From Parafannyhessea umbonata (GTDB lineage: Bacteria > Actinomycetota > Coriobacteriia > Coriobacteriales > Atopobiaceae): 64,000 bases of DNA. Location of the stretch: assembly GCF_900111255.1 (NCBI RefSeq), contig NZ_FOGP01000001.1, positions 284,894 through 348,893 on the forward strand, in the 5' to 3' direction. This document shows positions 53,542 through 62,334 of the stretch, piece after piece (within the stretch, counting starts at the first letter, position 1; the number at the start of each line of letters is the position of its first letter). A program made the position numbers and the translations under genes. Below the pieces are notes generated by a model, which searched no databases, was not told the origin of the DNA, and saw only the letters and a list, made by a program, of their open reading frames with translations.

Positions 53542-53563
53542 CGCGCGCCTGCGCGAGGCGCTA
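53539..53563. terminator. Hairpin between convergent genes containing both stop codons
   Basis: TAGCGC (53539-53544), containing the TAG of the rightward acyltransferase, pairs with GCGCTA (53558-53563), containing the TAG of the leftward gene. The 19-nt gap has no T-run, so any terminator function is weakly supported. Confidence 0.35.
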
Positions 53564-55237
53564 GGGCTGGTTGCCCGCGCCCTTCTCGGCTGCCTTCTGC
53601 GCCTCGATCTGCGCGTGCGCCTCCTCCTTCTGGCGCTCGAGCTCCCCGAGCTTGTCAAGGTCCCTCTGCGCCTCGGCGCGTTCCTCGTCCGTCGAGTCGG
53701 GGTCGTCCAGTATCTGCCGGAGCGACACCTCTGCGGGCACGGGCGGGTCTGTCAGGTAGAGCGTCTGCGGTATGGCATAGGCGGCCAGGATGGCGACGAA
53801 GGCCACGCTCATGACGTTGTGCGGTATGCGGGCGATGTACCACTCCATGACCGGGTAGACGATCCAGGCGATGAGGCTCGCGACGAGGCCGAAGCCCACG
53901 GCGTTCTGGAGGCAGATCATGCCCTGGAAGTTGAAGGGCATGTCGGAGTAGTTCCAGAGCTGCAGGTCTGCGTTGACGAACTGTCCCATCACGTACTCGA
54001 TGGCGGTGCAGAAGGCCATGTTCGCCAGGAAGCTCAGCAGGTACACGGGCACGTTGTTGCGGATGTGCTGACGCAGCCACTGCCACAGCGGGTGGAGCAC
54101 CAGCGCGATGCCCACCACGGCCAGGCCCTCCATGGGGAAGGGGTAGAACCAGTCACGCCACAGCATGGTGTTGGACGGGTCGAAGTCGCCGTGCACCAGG
54201 CCCAGGCGGATGAGCGTGCAGAACGCGCACTCCATCCAGTGGCCCATGAGCGAGAACACGCAGTAGTAGATTGCCAGGTTTCGCACGAAGGGCCAGCCGC
54301 GCCGGCTGATCTTGTAGTGCCATGGGTCGCTGGAGTCCTCGCTCAGCTCGCGGTCGAGCTCGAGGGTGAAGTCCTCGGTGTAGAATCCACGCAGCTTCCT
54401 CGAGAAGAGCGCGTAGGCAAGGAGAAGTGCGTCGGGAACCATGCTGACGGCCTGCGTGATGGGCTCGAGCTCTCCCGTGACGAAGAGGCCGAGCGTCCCG
54501 ACGCCCATGTTGAACAGCGTGAAGAAGACGATCCATGCGCGTCCCACGCGCAGGTGCCTGACCGTCATCCACAGGAAGAGCGCCGTAAAGACGAGGTCGG
54601 CAAAGCGCAGAAGGAGCGTGGGACTGTAGGAGACTATGTCGCGCGAGGTGGCAACGAGGGTCATGAGCAGGAAAAACGACCCCAGTGTGAGGTAGACGCA
54701 GAACGCCTTCAATATGCCGGGGGTATAGGGACGGCCGGTCTTGGGCGATATCCTGAGGCCGCGCCCGTCGACCCTATAGGTCGACGGAATGATGCCCAGG
54801 TACATCTTGAACTTGGTCGACGTGGCGAAGTAGAGCAGGAGCAGCAGGTCGGGAATGTTGGCGCCCACGATCTCCAGGAGGTTGGGGGAGGCGGTCCCCG
54901 CGTAGGACGCCACCGAGAACGTGATGCTCATGGCAAGCAGCGTCACGCCCATGGTCCTCGCGTTGGGCTGGCGCCTGATCACGCCGACGAGGAGGCCGAG
55001 GTCGAGCACGCATCCCACGATGGCGTCGGGGAGGGTCGCGGCGGCCTCCCCCTGGAGGACGCAGAGTGCGATCGACGTCGCACAGGCAATGAGGTTAAGG
55101 GCGATCAGCGCGACGATCAACTTGAGCAGGCCTGGCATGGGCATCTTGGGCTCTACTGCTGCGGGGTGCTTCGCGTGGGGGTTGAGCCGAGCGGTCTCTT
55201 TGGGTCGCGTGCCCTGCGCCATGTGTCGAGCCGACAT
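53561..55237 (-). CDS. Polytopic membrane protein with C-terminal ABC-transporter type IV permease-like (CmpB) domain
   Basis: The 558-residue protein starts at an ATG (55237) behind GAGGGAGGG. The N-terminal half has six or seven hydrophobic segments of no recognised family. The C-terminal half resembles the CmpB putative permease domain (VFSLMGHWMECAFCTLI, LPFxx-type loops, AIEYVMGQ, QLWNYSDMPFNFQGMICLQNAVGFG). It ends in a charged coiled-coil-like tail (DSTDEERAEAQRDLDKLGELERQKEEA). No ATPase gene is adjacent, so true ABC transport is doubtful. It is transcribed leftward on its own; the 255 bp up to the dlt cluster hold no clear gene. Confidence 0.65.
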   Translation of the reverse strand: MSARHMAQGTRPKETARLNPHAKHPAAVEPKMPMPGLLKLIVALIALNLIACATSIALCVLQGEAAATLPDAIVGCVLDLGLLVGVIRRQPNARTMGVTLLAMSITFSVASYAGTASPNLLEIVGANIPDLLLLLYFATSTKFKMYLGIIPSTYRVDGRGLRISPKTGRPYTPGILKAFCVYLTLGSFFLLMTLVATSRDIVSYSPTLLLRFADLVFTALFLWMTVRHLRVGRAWIVFFTLFNMGVGTLGLFVTGELEPITQAVSMVPDALLLAYALFSRKLRGFYTEDFTLELDRELSEDSSDPWHYKISRRGWPFVRNLAIYYCVFSLMGHWMECAFCTLIRLGLVHGDFDPSNTMLWRDWFYPFPMEGLAVVGIALVLHPLWQWLRQHIRNNVPVYLLSFLANMAFCTAIEYVMGQFVNADLQLWNYSDMPFNFQGMICLQNAVGFGLVASLIAWIVYPVMEWYIARIPHNVMSVAFVAILAAYAIPQTLYLTDPPVPAEVSLRQILDDPDSTDEERAEAQRDLDKLGELERQKEEAHAQIEAQKAAEKGAGNQP

Positions 55238-55466
55238 GATGCCCTCCCTCTTGCGGTGGGGGTTGCGTGTCTGGACGGCCTTCGCCAGATGATTGACGAA
55301 AACGCCGCTATGTAACTTTCTTACAAATGTACCATGCCAAAAGCGCTGTTGGGCGCCGCGTCTAATGCCAGACGGCCGGTGGGTGCGCCATGGCAAGCGA
55401 TGCGGGGACGCGCCATGAAGAGGAGCCGCGCAGAGGCGGCCCCGAGTGGCGTGCCTGTCGATGGGT

Positions 55467-55492: not shown

Positions 55493-55684
55493 CTAGAACC
55501 CCGCGTAGACGAACTGCGCGGGCTCGTTGAAGCCGGAGAGTGACGTGAACCACACCAGCAGCGCTCCCATGAGGACCACGAGCAGCGCCGCCCCGAGGCA
55601 CCTCAGGCGCCAGTGGCTGTTTCCATAGGCCAGGACGCGCTCCTTGGCGTCCGCAAGGGGAGTGAACTCCTTCGAGGATGACAT
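55493..55684 (-). CDS. Small single-pass membrane protein, DltX-like
   Basis: The 63-residue protein starts at an ATG (55684) behind AGAAGGA, 18 nt after dltD. It has a polar N-half, one membrane helix (LGAALLVVLMGALLVWF) and a C-terminal NEPAQFVYAGF. DltX microproteins, short single-pass proteins of dlt operons, end in a conserved aromatic F-(I/V)-Y-x-x-F motif, and FVYAGF fits. DltX is normally encoded upstream of dltA; here it would be last. DltX is thought to help pass D-Ala through DltB to the acceptor. Identification rests on location, size, topology and the last six residues. Confidence 0.6.
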   Translation of the reverse strand: MSSSKEFTPLADAKERVLAYGNSHWRLRCLGAALLVVLMGALLVWFTSLSGFNEPAQFVYAGF

Positions 55685-55702: not shown

Positions 55703-57082
55703 CTACTGCCGGTCCGAGCCGTCGGCTGCGGTCTGCTGCTCTTGCTGTTTGGCCTGGTCGCCCATGGTGACGAGTCCCTGGCCCGTCACCTGCCCGTGGC
55801 CCTTGCCGCCCAGGAACTCGTCGTCCTGTCCCAGGAAGTGGTGGTAGAGGGCCTTTTCGATGCGAACCCAGCCCCTCCAGCCGGGGTGGACCGTGTCGCA
55901 GAAAAAGTAGCGCTCGTACTCGCAGCTCTGGAAGTCGGCATAGGGCAGGCCGTTCTGGTCGCAGATGTCGATCATGCGGTCGTACCAACCCTGGCGCTCG
56001 TCCACGTCGATGTAGGCGCGGTCGTCGTACCAGGCGCCGTGCATTGGAATCAGCACGACGATGGGACTCAGGCCCGCCTCGCGGCAGACGTCCAGCAGCG
56101 CCTGGAAGTCCGCGAACTCGAGCTCGGCGTCGTCGAAGCTCTGCTTGTACTCGCCGACCTGCTTAGAGTGCGCTTTCCAGTAGTCGTTGTAGATGCCCAT
56201 GTCGTTGCTGGCGCTCATCTGCCAGCCCGTCTCGTCGGCCTGTGCCAGGAGCGCGTCCCAGTCGGGCTCTCCGGACCAGGTGCCGCTCCTGCGCTCCTCG
56301 GACAACAGGGGCGCCTGGCTGACGAGGTCGTTGATGCCCAGACGCAGCTTGGCGTCCTTCTGCGCGTGGATGACGAGGTCGTTCAGCTCGTCGATGGGGG
56401 TCGCCTGCTCGCAGTCGGCCAGGGTGGCCTTGTCGATGCCCAGGGCAAGTAGGCGGTCATGCACGTAGGAGCGCGTCTGCTCGGAGACCTGCGTGTTGTC
56501 GCAGAACGCGCGGTAGAGCTCGTAGGAGAACTTCGACTTGAACTTCTTCTGGGCGCCGTTGCCCCTGAAGAACCACTGCGGAGAGACGAACAGCGCCACG
56601 TCGCGATTGGGGATGTCGGCCTGGGCGTAGGCGCCGGCGGCGATGGCGTTCCACAGCGACTGGTCGTAGGCCTCGCCCACGTAGGTCAGGTCGACGCCGG
56701 TGTTGTGCTCGCCGAACACGGCCTGCGGGCACTGGGGGATGAGCGGCGCGGAGTAGTGGAACTCAGACGAGCCGAAGCAGAGCCTGCCCGTGCGCGACAT
56801 GTTGGTGGCCGTGAACTCCCAGGACTCGGACTTGGTGTTGCCGTAGACGTAGTCGAACAGGCGCCACTGGTCCGCGTCGACCCCGTCGTTGTAGTTCTCG
56901 ACGGCCTGGGGGAGCACGAGGGCGTTTGTGGCGGCGAGGCCTGCCCCCAGCGTTGCCAGGCCCCCTGCCGTGGCGGCGAGGAAGGTCCTGCGGACCATGG
57001 AGGGCTCAGGCGAGAGGGGCGTGCCCTCCGGGGCCGCGGCCGCGTCCTGCCTCTTGTCTGTGTTCGTGGCGGTGGTGCTCAT
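55703..57082 (-). CDS. dltD: D-alanyl-lipoteichoic acid biosynthesis protein DltD
   Basis: This 459-residue extracellular SGNH-like protein acts in D-alanine transfer. FGSSEFHY (Ser105/106) is the nucleophile motif, and FCDTVHPGWRG holds the Asp-His pair. IPNRDVALFVSPQWF and SPIVVLIPMHGAWYDDR are DltD-like. The N-terminus has a 28-residue polar tail, then VRRTFLAATAGGLATLGAGLAA, which resembles a twin-arginine signal and is unusual for DltD. A Gln/Gly-rich tail ends it. It lies about 40 nt after dltC. Confidence 0.88.
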   Translation of the reverse strand: MSTTATNTDKRQDAAAAPEGTPLSPEPSMVRRTFLAATAGGLATLGAGLAATNALVLPQAVENYNDGVDADQWRLFDYVYGNTKSESWEFTATNMSRTGRLCFGSSEFHYSAPLIPQCPQAVFGEHNTGVDLTYVGEAYDQSLWNAIAAGAYAQADIPNRDVALFVSPQWFFRGNGAQKKFKSKFSYELYRAFCDNTQVSEQTRSYVHDRLLALGIDKATLADCEQATPIDELNDLVIHAQKDAKLRLGINDLVSQAPLLSEERRSGTWSGEPDWDALLAQADETGWQMSASNDMGIYNDYWKAHSKQVGEYKQSFDDAELEFADFQALLDVCREAGLSPIVVLIPMHGAWYDDRAYIDVDERQGWYDRMIDICDQNGLPYADFQSCEYERYFFCDTVHPGWRGWVRIEKALYHHFLGQDDEFLGGKGHGQVTGQGLVTMGDQAKQQEQQTAADGSDRQ

Positions 57083-57122: not shown

Positions 57123-57383
57123 CTAGCCGAGCCTCTGCTCGACCTGGTATGCGATGAGATTCGCGGTGTTCATCTGTTCGCGCGGGACCTCGGTGGGGGC
57201 GATGGAGACACCCATCTCGTCCTCGATGGCGAGCAGGAGCTCGACGGCCCCCATGGAGTCGAGGTAGCCGAGGTCGAAGAGGTCCTCGTCCAGGTGGTCG
57301 CGGACGTCGTCCTCCCCGCTGACCTCCTCGAGCAGGTCGATGATCTTGTCTAGCGTCTCGGCGGATGCGGTTGCTTCAGACAT
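57123..57383 (-). CDS. dltC: D-alanyl carrier protein DltC
   Basis: This 86-residue acyl-carrier-like protein starts at an ATG (57383), 2 nt after the dltB stop, behind AAAGGAG inside the dltB end. Ser43 in GYLDSMGAVELLL is the phosphopantetheine site. It is acidic (VSGEDDVRDHLDEDLFDLG), as carrier proteins are. DltA loads it with D-Ala and DltB receives it at the membrane. Confidence 0.93.
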   Translation of the reverse strand: MSEATASAETLDKIIDLLEEVSGEDDVRDHLDEDLFDLGYLDSMGAVELLLAIEDEMGVSIAPTEVPREQMNTANLIAYQVEQRLG

Positions 57384-57385
57384 GG

Positions 57386-58546
57386 TTATGCTCCTTTCAC
57401 GAGCTTGGACAGCTGCCCGGAGAACAGGGCGAAGCCAAAGAATACAAGTTGCATGGTGACGAACCAAGAGCAGACGCGGTACCACGTCTGGTGACGGTGG
57501 CGCTTGTGGAAGGCGCCCTTCTCCCACGCGGTGTTCGCCGCCAGGAGCAGCCCGTGGTAGAGGCCGTAGAGCAGGTAGTCGGGCGTGAGACCGTGCCAGG
57601 CGCCCATGAGTGTCATGTTGCAAATCAGGGCGACCTGCGAGGTGGTCAGGCGGCTCTTGAACGTCTTGCGGCGCATGAGGCCGCGCAGCAGGCGCATGAA
57701 GACGAAGTCGCGCAGCCATTCGGAGAGCGTGATGTGCCAGCGCTTCCAGAAGTCGCTGATGCTCGTCGCCAGGAAGGGCGCGTGGAAGTTGCGCGGCGTG
57801 CGGATGCCCAGGCACAGGCTGGTGCCGATGGCCATCATCGAGTATCCGGCGAAGTCGAAGAACAGGTACAGGCCGTAGGCGTAGCAGTTCTTGACCTGGA
57901 TGAGCAGCGAGAACCAGAAGTTCGTCGCATCCCACGCCTCGGCCACGTTGTAGCGGTTGCACACCGCGGCGAACACGATTTTGTAGACCATGCCGCCCAT
58001 GATGAGCAGGATGCCCTTGGCGAGCATCTCGGCGTACTCCGAGCGCTCGATGGGGCGGTCGAGGTCCTCCTGGAAGCGGCGGCTGCGGTCGATCGGCCCC
58101 GAGGTGAAGGTGGGGAAGAACACGAGGAAGTACAGGGTGTCCAGCTGGGACGCTTCCCTGATGATCCCGTCGTGGGCCTCGATGAGCATCTGGGCGGCGC
58201 GGAAGGTCAGGTACGAGATGCCCAAAAAGCCCAGGAGGTTCTGGCCGAAGACGGCGCCGACCTTGTAGATGACCAGCGGGGCGAGCACGGCGGCCAGACA
58301 GAGGCGGAAGCGCGCCTTGCCCTTTGGGTCGCGCAAAAGGACGCGCAGTGCCACGAGTGCTATTGCCACGTGCAGCGCGGCCGCGAGCCCCTGCACGGGC
58401 GTCGGGAAGAAGGCCAGGCCCAGCATGAGCAGGGAGGTCACCAGGCCGTAGCGCTTGAGCGAGTGCCCCGTGAGTCCCAGGGCGGCGGCGCCGGCGATGA
58501 TGCCGGACAGAAGTATGAAGAACGAGGGGTCCGAGAAGAGCGTCAT
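57386..58546 (-). CDS. dltB: D-alanyl transfer membrane protein DltB (MBOAT)
   Basis: This 386-residue MBOAT-family protein has about 11 membrane segments. The catalytic His is 318 in MGAWHGLTPDY, with a second conserved His at 331 (YGLYHG). FFPTFTSGPIDRSRRF and SDFWKRWHITLSEWLRDF are typical DltB motifs. It moves D-Ala from DltC across the membrane to an anionic wall polymer. Its start lies 3 nt after the dltA stop. Confidence 0.95.
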   Translation of the reverse strand: MTLFSDPSFFILLSGIIAGAAALGLTGHSLKRYGLVTSLLMLGLAFFPTPVQGLAAALHVAIALVALRVLLRDPKGKARFRLCLAAVLAPLVIYKVGAVFGQNLLGFLGISYLTFRAAQMLIEAHDGIIREASQLDTLYFLVFFPTFTSGPIDRSRRFQEDLDRPIERSEYAEMLAKGILLIMGGMVYKIVFAAVCNRYNVAEAWDATNFWFSLLIQVKNCYAYGLYLFFDFAGYSMMAIGTSLCLGIRTPRNFHAPFLATSISDFWKRWHITLSEWLRDFVFMRLLRGLMRRKTFKSRLTTSQVALICNMTLMGAWHGLTPDYLLYGLYHGLLLAANTAWEKGAFHKRHRHQTWYRVCSWFVTMQLVFFGFALFSGQLSKLVKGA

Positions 58547-58549
58547 GTT

Positions 58550-60145
58550 CTAGCCTGCAATCAGGGTCTTGCGGTCGATCTTTGCGTTGTTGGTCAGGGG
58601 CATGTCGTCGAGCACCTTGATGGAGCGCGGGACCATGTAGGCTGGGACGCGCTCGGCGAGGCGGCGGCGGAGCTCGCGGGGAGACTCGTCGGCCGCGGGC
58701 ACCTTGTGGTCGAGCACGACGAACGCCTTGAGCGAGGTGATGCTGCCCCCGCGCTCGACGGGGACGACGGCGCAGGACTTGATGCCGCCCAGACCGGCGA
58801 TGGAGTTCTCGACGTCGCCCAACTCGATGCGGAAGCCGTTGACCTTCACGAGCGAGCCCATGCGGCCCTCGTAGTGGAGGTTGCCGTCGGGGCCCAGATG
58901 ACCCAGGTCGCCGGTGCGGAAGCTGCGGCAGGTCGTGCCGTCCGAGAGACGGTCCTCGTCGAAGGCGGCCATGGTCTTCTTGGGGTCGCCCAGGTAGCCC
59001 TTGGCGACGGTGTCGCCCACGATGACGATCTCGCCGGTCTCGCCGGCCTCGCACTCGTCCAGAAGGACGCCGTCCTCGGCGCGGCGCATGATGCGCAGCT
59101 CGGTGCCGGGGCGCGCGAAGCCTACGGGCAGGGCGTCCTTGGAGGCGAGCATGTCGTCGTCGATCTCGCAGTAGGTGACGGCGACGGTCGACTCGGTGGG
59201 GCCATAGGTGTTGGCGACGCGGGCCTTGGGGAAGCGCTCCCTCAGGCTCTGCGCGGTGCGGTGGCGCAGCGTGTCGCCGCAGAAGAGGAAGAGTCCCACG
59301 TTGGGCATGAGCTCGCTTCCGAAGGAGTGGTCGACCAGGCAGAGGTCCGCAAAGGGCGGGGTGGAGACCCAGACGTCGGGGTCGGCGTCGCGCAGCTCCT
59401 CGAAGAGGAGGGCGTAGTCATGCGAGGCCTCGGGCGAGATCGCGTACAGGCACCCGCCGGTCGCCAGTGCACCCGCCAGCTGGTACACGCTCAAATCGAA
59501 GCTGTAGGGGGCCTGATCCATGAAGGTGCGCCCGCCCTCGCGGATGGTGGGGAAGCCCTCGAGCCATCCCACGAAGTTGTCGACGTCGGTGGCGCTGACC
59601 TCGATGCCCTTGGGCCTTCCGGTCGAACCCGACGTGAAGATGAGGTATTGGGTGTCCTCGCCGCCGACCCACTGGTCGCGCTCGCCCCCGGCCTGCGCGG
59701 GAGAGGGGGCCTCGATGCCGTCGAGGCAGCTGGCGAGGTCGGCGAATGTGAGCTCGGTCTCGCTGACGGCACGGGCGCAGGCCTGGTCGCAGGCGAGCAC
59801 CAGGACGGGGCTCTGGCAGCAGGCCTCGAGCTGCGCGGCGATGTCGGTCAGGCGCGCGAGGGGCATGGAGCCGTCGACGGGCACGTAGGCGTGGCCGGAG
59901 CGAAGGCAGCCCAGGAAGGCCTCGACCATGAGAGGGCCCTTGCTGCCGAAGACCACGACGGGCATGCGGTTGGGGGCGAGCTGGGCGAGAAGTGCCGCGA
60001 CCTTGCCCGACGTCTCCCACAGGGACGCGTAGCTGACGGGCTCGGAGCCCAGTCGGCGGTATGCCGGAGCCTGGGGTGTCGTCTGGGCGGTCTGGCAGAC
60101 CCTGTCGAGCAGAACGTTGACGTTCTTCTCTGCTGCGTTGTTCAT
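58550..60145 (-). CDS. dltA: D-alanine--DltC ligase
   Basis: This 531-residue adenylating enzyme activates D-Ala and loads it on DltC. It has FTSGSTGRPKGIE (A3 core), NTYGPTESTVAVT (A5), SFRTGDLGHLGPDGNLHYEGR (A7/A8) and NAKIDRKTL (A10 lysine). An AGGAGCAAAG site precedes the ATG at 60145. First of the leftward dlt operon and divergent from a two-component system, so one regulatory region of about 210 bp serves both directions. Confidence 0.95.
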   Translation of the reverse strand: MNNAAEKNVNVLLDRVCQTAQTTPQAPAYRRLGSEPVSYASLWETSGKVAALLAQLAPNRMPVVVFGSKGPLMVEAFLGCLRSGHAYVPVDGSMPLARLTDIAAQLEACCQSPVLVLACDQACARAVSETELTFADLASCLDGIEAPSPAQAGGERDQWVGGEDTQYLIFTSGSTGRPKGIEVSATDVDNFVGWLEGFPTIREGGRTFMDQAPYSFDLSVYQLAGALATGGCLYAISPEASHDYALLFEELRDADPDVWVSTPPFADLCLVDHSFGSELMPNVGLFLFCGDTLRHRTAQSLRERFPKARVANTYGPTESTVAVTYCEIDDDMLASKDALPVGFARPGTELRIMRRAEDGVLLDECEAGETGEIVIVGDTVAKGYLGDPKKTMAAFDEDRLSDGTTCRSFRTGDLGHLGPDGNLHYEGRMGSLVKVNGFRIELGDVENSIAGLGGIKSCAVVPVERGGSITSLKAFVVLDHKVPAADESPRELRRRLAERVPAYMVPRSIKVLDDMPLTNNAKIDRKTLIAG

Positions 60146-60356
60146 CTTTGCTCCTGACTCGTAGGCGGAGGGTCGCTTTGTCGGGGGCAGCGATGTCCCG
60201 CCGACGATTGGCCATGCTACGGAACGAACCTAAGCCGAATCTATGTGTGTGCGCACGTCCACAAATATGGTCACTCTCACGGTAGGATGGTGGAGAGGAG
60301 GCGCATGCCGGCGGGCTGCCCGACGCGCATGCGACGGTATAGTGATGGGAGGCGCC

Positions 60357-61058
60357 ATGGAGCCGATGAGGCTGCTGCTGGCCGAGGACGAGGCCGAGCT
60401 CTCGCGTGCGCTGTGCGCGATCCTGGCTCACGCGGGCTACGAGGTCGATGCTGCCGCCGACGGCGAGGAGGCCCTGTACAAGCTTGACTGCCAGAGCTAC
60501 GACCTGGCCATACTGGACATCATGATGCCCAAGGTGGACGGGCTCACCGTGCTGAGGACGCTGCGCCAGAAGGGGAGGGACCTTCCCGTCATGATGCTAA
60601 CGGCCCGTGCCGAGATTGACGACCGCGTTACGGGCCTCGACGCCGGAGCCAACGACTACCTGGTAAAGCCCTTTGCGGCCAAGGAACTCCTGGCTCGCAT
60701 CCGCGCGATAACCCACACGAGCCCCGGCGCCGTACGCAAGCGCCCGGCCTTTGGCGACCTTCGGCTCGACGAGGGCGACTCGCTGCTCCTGTGCGGGGTT
60801 GCGAGCGAGTCCCTGACCGCCAACGAGCTCAAGGTGGCGGCCATCCTGTTCGCGCACGGCTCGGGGCTCACGACGCTGGAGCAGCTTCGTCGCGAGGTGT
60901 GGGGCATTCTGAGCGACACCGAGTCGAGCGCCATCTACGTGACCGTCTCGAACCTGCGAAAGAAGGTGCGCTCCCTGGGCTCGACGGTCGACATCGTCAC
61001 CGCGCGCGGCCTGGGCTATCGCCTGAGCGCCCCCGAGGGGGACGACCATGCGCAGTAG
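60357..61058 (+). CDS. OmpR-family response regulator
   Basis: This 233-residue regulator starts at an ATG behind GGGAGG; the frame is open upstream without a better site. The receiver domain has EDEAEL, phospho-acceptor Asp54 (AILDIMMPKVDG), a Thr in MLTARA and Lys in DYLVKPF. The C-terminal winged helix has ANELKVAAILF, SSAIYVTVSNLRKKV and TARGLGYRL. It overlaps the histidine kinase gene by 11 nt. Divergence from dltA suggests the dlt operon is a target (inference), as for DltR in streptococci. Confidence 0.92.
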   Translation: MEPMRLLLAEDEAELSRALCAILAHAGYEVDAAADGEEALYKLDCQSYDLAILDIMMPKVDGLTVLRTLRQKGRDLPVMMLTARAEIDDRVTGLDAGANDYLVKPFAAKELLARIRAITHTSPGAVRKRPAFGDLRLDEGDSLLLCGVASESLTANELKVAAILFAHGSGLTTLEQLRREVWGILSDTESSAIYVTVSNLRKKVRSLGSTVDIVTARGLGYRLSAPEGDDHAQ

Positions 61059-62334
61059 GCTCATCGAGTGGCTCAAGCGCGACTACGGCGGATCGATCGG
61101 GCGCATGCGCCGCAAGATGCACCTGACGGCCATCGTCGCGACGGCCCTGGTCCTGACAGTCGTTGTGGCGGCGCTCGACCTGGTGGTCTGGAACAACGTC
61201 CTTGTCCAGGTGGACACGGTCGTCGACCTGATCGAGGCGAAGGGCGGCGTCCTGAGCGCCGATGCCGGCATCACCGACGACGACCTTGACGCCAACCAGG
61301 GGTTCAATACGCGCCTGAACGACGTCGCGCTCGAGGAGATTCCCTACAACGCCCGGTACTTCACCGTTACGTTCAACGACGGCAGCGAGATCGTCGACGC
61401 GAACATGGGCAGCATCGCGTCGGTGGACACCGACGCCGCGGAGGCCATGGCCAACGAGGTGATCGCCAGCGGCCAGATGGAGGGCTTCGACGGCGTCTAC
61501 CGCTATCGCGTCGTCCCCATGGGCGACGGCACGATGATCATCTTCTACTTTGCCTACGACGACCTCTTCTACTTCGACTCGTTCCGCTACGCTTCGATCA
61601 TGATGGGCCTTCTGGGTCTGCTGATCTTCGCGCTTCTGGAGATTCCCCTGATCCTCTGGGTCACCCGGCCCCTCGAGGAGGCCCAGGAGCGCCAGCGGCG
61701 GTTCGTGACCGACGCCTCCCACGAGCTGCGCACACCCATCAGCGTCATCACCTCGGCCATGGACGTGATCGAGATCGAGAGCGGCGAGAGCGAATGGACC
61801 CGCAGCGTCCACCACCAGGCCAAGCGTCTCGAGGACCTTACCGACAAGCTGGTCGCCCTCGCGAAGGTGGAGGAGGGGGAGCGCTCCCTCAGCCTGGGCG
61901 ACGTCGACGTCTCGACCGTGGCCATGGGCTTTGCCGAGGACTTCGAGGCGGTCGCGCAGTCGAAGGGCAAGTCCTTCTCGTTTGCCATCCAGCCCAACGT
62001 GGTCGCCTACGCGGACACCGCCATGATGGAGCAGGCGCTGTCCATCCTGCTCGACAACGCGTTCAAGCACTCTCCCGACTTCGCACGCGTCGAGCTGTCC
62101 GTCAGCTCCGCCTCGGGCCTGGCGAGCATCGCCGTCACCAACGACGTCGCGGGCATGGCCGAGGGCCCCCATCCCGAGCTGTTCGACCGCTTCTACAAGT
62201 CGGACGGCGCGCGCTCATACGCGGGCGGGCACGGCATCGGCCTTTCGGTCGTGCGCGGGATCGCCCGAGCCCACGGCGGCCGCGTCTCGGCGACGTGCGT
62301 GGGTGGCAGACTCACCGTGGAGCTGGTCGTCTAG
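61048..62334 (+). CDS. Membrane histidine kinase
   Basis: The 428-residue sensor has an N-terminal cytosolic tail, one membrane segment (ATALVLTVVVAALDLVVW) and an extracellular domain of about 130 residues rich in acidic residues (DAGITDDDLDAN, DTDAAEAM). A second segment follows (IMMGLLGLLIFALLEIPLIL), then the dimerisation domain with His225 (ASHELRTPISVI) and an ATPase domain (NAFKHSPDFA; GGHGIGLSVVRGIARAHGG). The acidic outer domain could sense cations or cationic peptides, which D-alanylation counters (inference). Confidence 0.92.
   Translation: MRSRLIEWLKRDYGGSIGRMRRKMHLTAIVATALVLTVVVAALDLVVWNNVLVQVDTVVDLIEAKGGVLSADAGITDDDLDANQGFNTRLNDVALEEIPYNARYFTVTFNDGSEIVDANMGSIASVDTDAAEAMANEVIASGQMEGFDGVYRYRVVPMGDGTMIIFYFAYDDLFYFDSFRYASIMMGLLGLLIFALLEIPLILWVTRPLEEAQERQRRFVTDASHELRTPISVITSAMDVIEIESGESEWTRSVHHQAKRLEDLTDKLVALAKVEEGERSLSLGDVDVSTVAMGFAEDFEAVAQSKGKSFSFAIQPNVVAYADTAMMEQALSILLDNAFKHSPDFARVELSVSSASGLASIAVTNDVAGMAEGPHPELFDRFYKSDGARSYAGGHGIGLSVVRGIARAHGGRVSATCVGGRLTVELVV

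Follow-up and report, generated by a model that had tools for sequence, protein, structure and literature searches.

A DltX orthologue encoded beside dltD in Parafannyhessea umbonata and its relatives

The dlt operon and its terminal open reading frame

A stretch of 64,000 nucleotides from Parafannyhessea umbonata (contig NZ_FOGP01000001.1, positions 284,894 to 348,893; hereafter the window) was analyzed and found to carry a dltABCD operon on its minus strand. For the D-alanine ligase gene dltA (58550..60145) the best-scoring models were TIGR01734 and PRK04813, neither of whose cut-offs was quite reached. The gene for the MBOAT protein, dltB (57386..58546), scored 442.6 bits against TIGR04091 (cut-off 375), the D-alanyl carrier protein gene dltC (57123..57383) was above the cut-offs of PRK05087 and TIGR01688, and dltD (55703..57082), for the SGNH-type D-alanyl transfer protein, matched PF04914 with E=7.7e-69 and TIGR04092 with a score of 201 (cut-off 150). 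DltB is the sole MBOAT of the genome and ends in LSKLVKGA, with no fused FXYXXF motif. Divergent to dltA, on the plus strand, lie the open reading frames of a response regulator and a histidine kinase (60357..62334). The same divergent pair stands beside dlt in L025, L026, L028, L088, L089 and L112, and is a likely regulator of the operon. Scans for promoters, terminators and Rfam families yielded no interpretable result.

The last gene of the operon, dltX (55493..55684, minus strand), is an open reading frame running from ATG to TAG that begins 18 nt past dltD on the same strand. Its 63-codon product, MSSSKEFTPLADAKERVLAYGNSHWRLRCLGAALLVVLMGALLVWFTSLSGFNEPAQFVYAGF, has the C-terminus FVYAGF, encoded at 55496..55513 (minus strand), and from the sequence reading the codon of Tyr60 is at 55505-55507. 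An initial annotation had assigned this frame to a dlt operon and to its 3' end, and both assignments were borne out, the first by the Pfam and NCBIfam identification of dltA, dltB, dltC and dltD. The terminal hexapeptide is unusual in this DNA: dltX alone ends in F-x-Y-x-x-F out of 784 frames counted from stop to stop across the window (minimum 40 codons), and about 0.002 such ends were expected from the six-frame composition. Downstream of dltX is a gene for a CmpB-like (PF06541) multi-pass membrane protein (53561-55396, minus strand), the true start of which is probably near 55238.

A transmembrane helix is predicted at about residues 29-49 of DltX (55538..55600, minus strand; hydrophobicity 2.4 across 19 residues). 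With this single hydrophobic helix in 63 residues, the product has the small single-pass form of a DltX. Arginines flank the helix at its N-terminal side only, a pattern that fits a predicted N-in/C-out orientation. AlphaFold2 modeled DltX alone as a helix from residue 9 to 50, followed by an unstructured tail (51-63). In a linked DltD-DltX read-through fold the tail had pLDDT values of about 50-60, no better than for DltX alone. A search of solved structures with the Bacillus thuringiensis DltX as query returned no DltX entry.

Family identity of the gene product

Pfam and NCBIfam scans gave no match to the window DltX, and none to PF12459, the Pfam DltX model; Pfam misses the protein because its overall identity to Bacillota DltX is only about 14-18%. 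A search of the whole genome with PF12459 produced a chance match only. Two relatives, each from a different lineage within the class, matched PF12459 below the cut-off, across most of the model. We read the miss as limited coverage by a model built mainly on Bacillota sequences, not as the absence of a biological feature.

Because Pfam did not recognize the window protein, homology was tested by profile comparison. A profile of the class DltX sequences aligned with Bacillota DltX in hhalign at 96.7% (E=4.6e-10, 40 columns), and at 85.9% (E=5e-6) when the motif columns were removed. Column-shuffled Bacillota DltX controls gave 0.1-28% in 20 runs, all but one below 1%; shuffled controls with the motif left in place gave 62-79%. 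The FVYAGF end agrees with FXYXXF, the published consensus of acyl-shuttle C-termini (PMC12148441). Together with the single-pass prediction, this alignment and profile homology uphold the initial identification of the protein as DltX. The same annotation had named a canonical DltX upstream of dltA as evidence against that identification. Such a second copy was looked for upstream of dltA and elsewhere in the genome and is absent; no DltX-like open reading frame lies in the gap that separates dltA from the divergent response regulator (60157-60356). A DltX profile search of the genome returned one match (E=2.4e-21, with a profile that includes the window sequence). Among the papers searched, none links DltX with Actinobacteria.

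Distribution and gene order of dltX

Of the 398 class genomes searched, 205 had DltB matches at E<=1e-40, a set that takes in more distant MBOATs, and 91 passed the DltB cut-off. The survey covered 97 dlt loci of the class, the window among them, and a microprotein passing the motif and hydrophobicity filter was found in 89. The eight filter-negative loci comprise L092, with Ser in place of Tyr; L104, L139 and L126, in which the gene is cut by the contig end; L090, with a run of N at the expected site; and L080, L122 and L142, which end before the site. Four of these (L092, L104, L139 and L090) otherwise have the full ABCD set. Every one of the 93 readable loci thus has a DltX-like gene; in three the contig end falls ahead of the motif. 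A sequence-only search of the window's family that did not use the motif found dltX in 21 more genomes, and a family profile search agreed with it. An extra match in the sequence-only search, at L024/L046, was false. In G045, a nearly complete genome of the window's genus, no DltB and no DltX passed the search thresholds, so that not all members of the genus have the operon. L093, L095 and L137 have a further MBOAT gene next to dlt, with a fused FIYFQF or FIYFRF end, as in PatA-like systems.

In 88 of the 89 testable loci dltX lies within 400 nt of a dltD, the exception being L083, with no recognizable dltD. Gene order is mostly ABCDX (61 loci); ABCXD, ACBDX, DXABC, BCDXA and others also occur. 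The dltD-dltX junction has a median of -1 across 75 loci and is most often -4 or -1; individual values are approximate, since start codons were picked by rule. The layout survey proposed in the initial annotation thus gives dltX next to dltD as the norm of the class. Translational coupling, by which DltD and DltX would be made together, probably accounts for the 3' position.

That the terminal frame is an untranslated chance opening at the end of the operon was considered, given its shortness, the abundance of open frames in high-GC DNA (79 of at least 40 aa overlap 48-60 kb of the window) and a weak ribosome-binding site, GAAGGA, ending 1 nt upstream of the ATG. Against this reading stand the retention of gene and C-terminal motif in the readable loci (the motif region being cut off in three), over several families, and the start-stop overlaps between dltD and dltX. 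The reading frame is kept in relatives, and the median NG86 dN/dS over 31 related pairs was 0.34, a value that is noisy at such short length; it exceeded 1 in a few near-identical pairs. At moderate divergence the codon changes appear to be mostly synonymous, which likewise argues against chance. We regard a chance frame as vanishingly improbable: the 63 codons form a genuine gene that encodes a DltX orthologue and belongs to a complete dltABCD operon. A recent local transposition of the gene within the window's lineage is also highly unlikely. It would accord with the dltX-first order of Bacilli (PMC5541007), with which our own count is consistent: dltX directly precedes dltA in 29 of 32 Bacilli loci, a sample found with the B. 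thuringiensis DltX query and biased to its close relatives. In the exceptions, dltX precedes dltB with no dltA match (L183, L185) or the locus is cut by a contig end (L178). The layout of the window, however, is class-wide, and within a thin sample of Bacillota the order is ABCDX in L205, and L206, L208, L209 and L210 place X between D and A. Placement beside dltD is the class norm, present in some Bacillota too, and not a local oddity.

The orders XABCD, CDXAB, DXABC and ABCDX are rotations of a single cyclic order. Because D-adjacent dltX occurs class-wide and in several Bacillota, it may just as well be the dltXABCD order of Bacilli that arose by rearrangement. The initial annotation was thus right about the position of the gene; its proposal of a move within the operon is not polarized by these orders, and the layout is shared by the class.

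The putative acyl shuttle, its variants and known systems

PMC12148441 describes DltX of characterized systems as a membrane microprotein in which the tyrosine of the FXYXXF tail carries D-alanine from DltB to DltD. By analogy with other species, from which the chemical steps, the N-in/C-out orientation and the contact with DltB and DltD are drawn, the observed gene, family, motif, topology pattern, operon and sole-DltX status would be accommodated as follows. DltA would activate D-alanine and then load DltC. DltB would transfer the D-alanine from DltC to Tyr60 of the FVYAGF tail at the outer membrane face. The tail would then swing to DltD, whose serine would accept the D-alanine for transfer to (lipo)teichoic acid. 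The acceptor may be made by a PF00884 sulfatase-fold, LtaS-like membrane protein that the genome encodes.

The gene very probably encodes DltX as the acyl-shuttle subunit of this machine. The protein might instead have become a structural partner of DltB and DltD, with the shuttle chemistry lost, as the relative in L092 with Ser for Tyr could suggest; this seems improbable, since Tyr is present in 89 of 90 complete genes and the genome has no other DltX and a DltB without fused motif. Conservation of the Tyr is partly circular because the search filter required it, a concern limited by L092, which was found by reading the locus, and by the sequence-only search. As the sole DltX of a genome with a sole MBOAT and no motif fused to DltB, the window protein completes the D-alanylation machine. 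On the best reading the function is the ordinary one, that of the DltX of a standard D-alanylation machine, and the annotation is useful: it completes the machine of a whole bacterial class, in a case that Pfam and NCBIfam miss, and makes plain that the operon does not follow the order dltXABCD everywhere. That dltD and dltX are constant neighbors, in many cases with the stop of one overlapping the start of the other, is in keeping with a shuttle model that has DltX and DltD acting as one unit.

A subtype with a motif starting with Pro (PVYAEF, PVYENF, PIYEGF, PAYAAY and so on) was found in 16 loci. These P-x-Y-x-x-[F/Y] loci are L078, L079, L087, L093, L095, L096, L106, L107, L108, L110, L111, L113, L115, L119, L124 and L214. 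Profiles of P-type and F-type DltX are homologous (hhalign 98.5%). A tree of 85 neighboring DltDs, built without use of DltX, sets off the 14 P-type rows as one side of a single branch, with 98/89 support, recovery in 99% of bootstrap trees and none of 500 shuffles as low; this region has long branches and calls for caution. The P-type DltD clade spans host groups f1, f2 and f3, and the window DltD is firmly among the F-type. The genome G097 (L214, 2719-5756) has the order A-B-X(P)-D(P-like)-C-D(F-like), with one DltX and two DltDs of different types. Two DltDs also occur in L096, L113 and L123. At about 8118-8135 of L092 (G385) the tail reads PVSAEF, the shuttle Tyr being replaced by Ser (codon TCC) while the rest of the gene is intact; this may be a natural variant, decay or an assembly error. 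Tentatively, DltX and DltD of this class may have diversified as matched pairs, with the P-type tail co-specialized to the active site of its DltD, possibly in connection with a different acceptor or acyl group. With the natural P-x-Y-x-x-F subtype comes a set of matched pairs that could be used to find out which tail residues DltD reads.

Among known systems, the Bacillota DltX (PF12459, formerly DUF3687), for example that of B. thuringiensis, shares with the window protein its small single-pass form, the C-terminal FXYXXF, a place in the dlt operon and a homologous profile. The two differ in length, 63 residues against 48, and in gene position: here the gene follows dltD, there it precedes dltA. 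PatA-type MBOAT proteins (PMC12148441) have in common with it the hexapeptide with an acyl-carrying Tyr; in those systems the motif is fused to the C-terminus of the MBOAT protein itself and the donor is acyl-CoA, whereas here it belongs to a separate protein, beside a DltB with no such tail.
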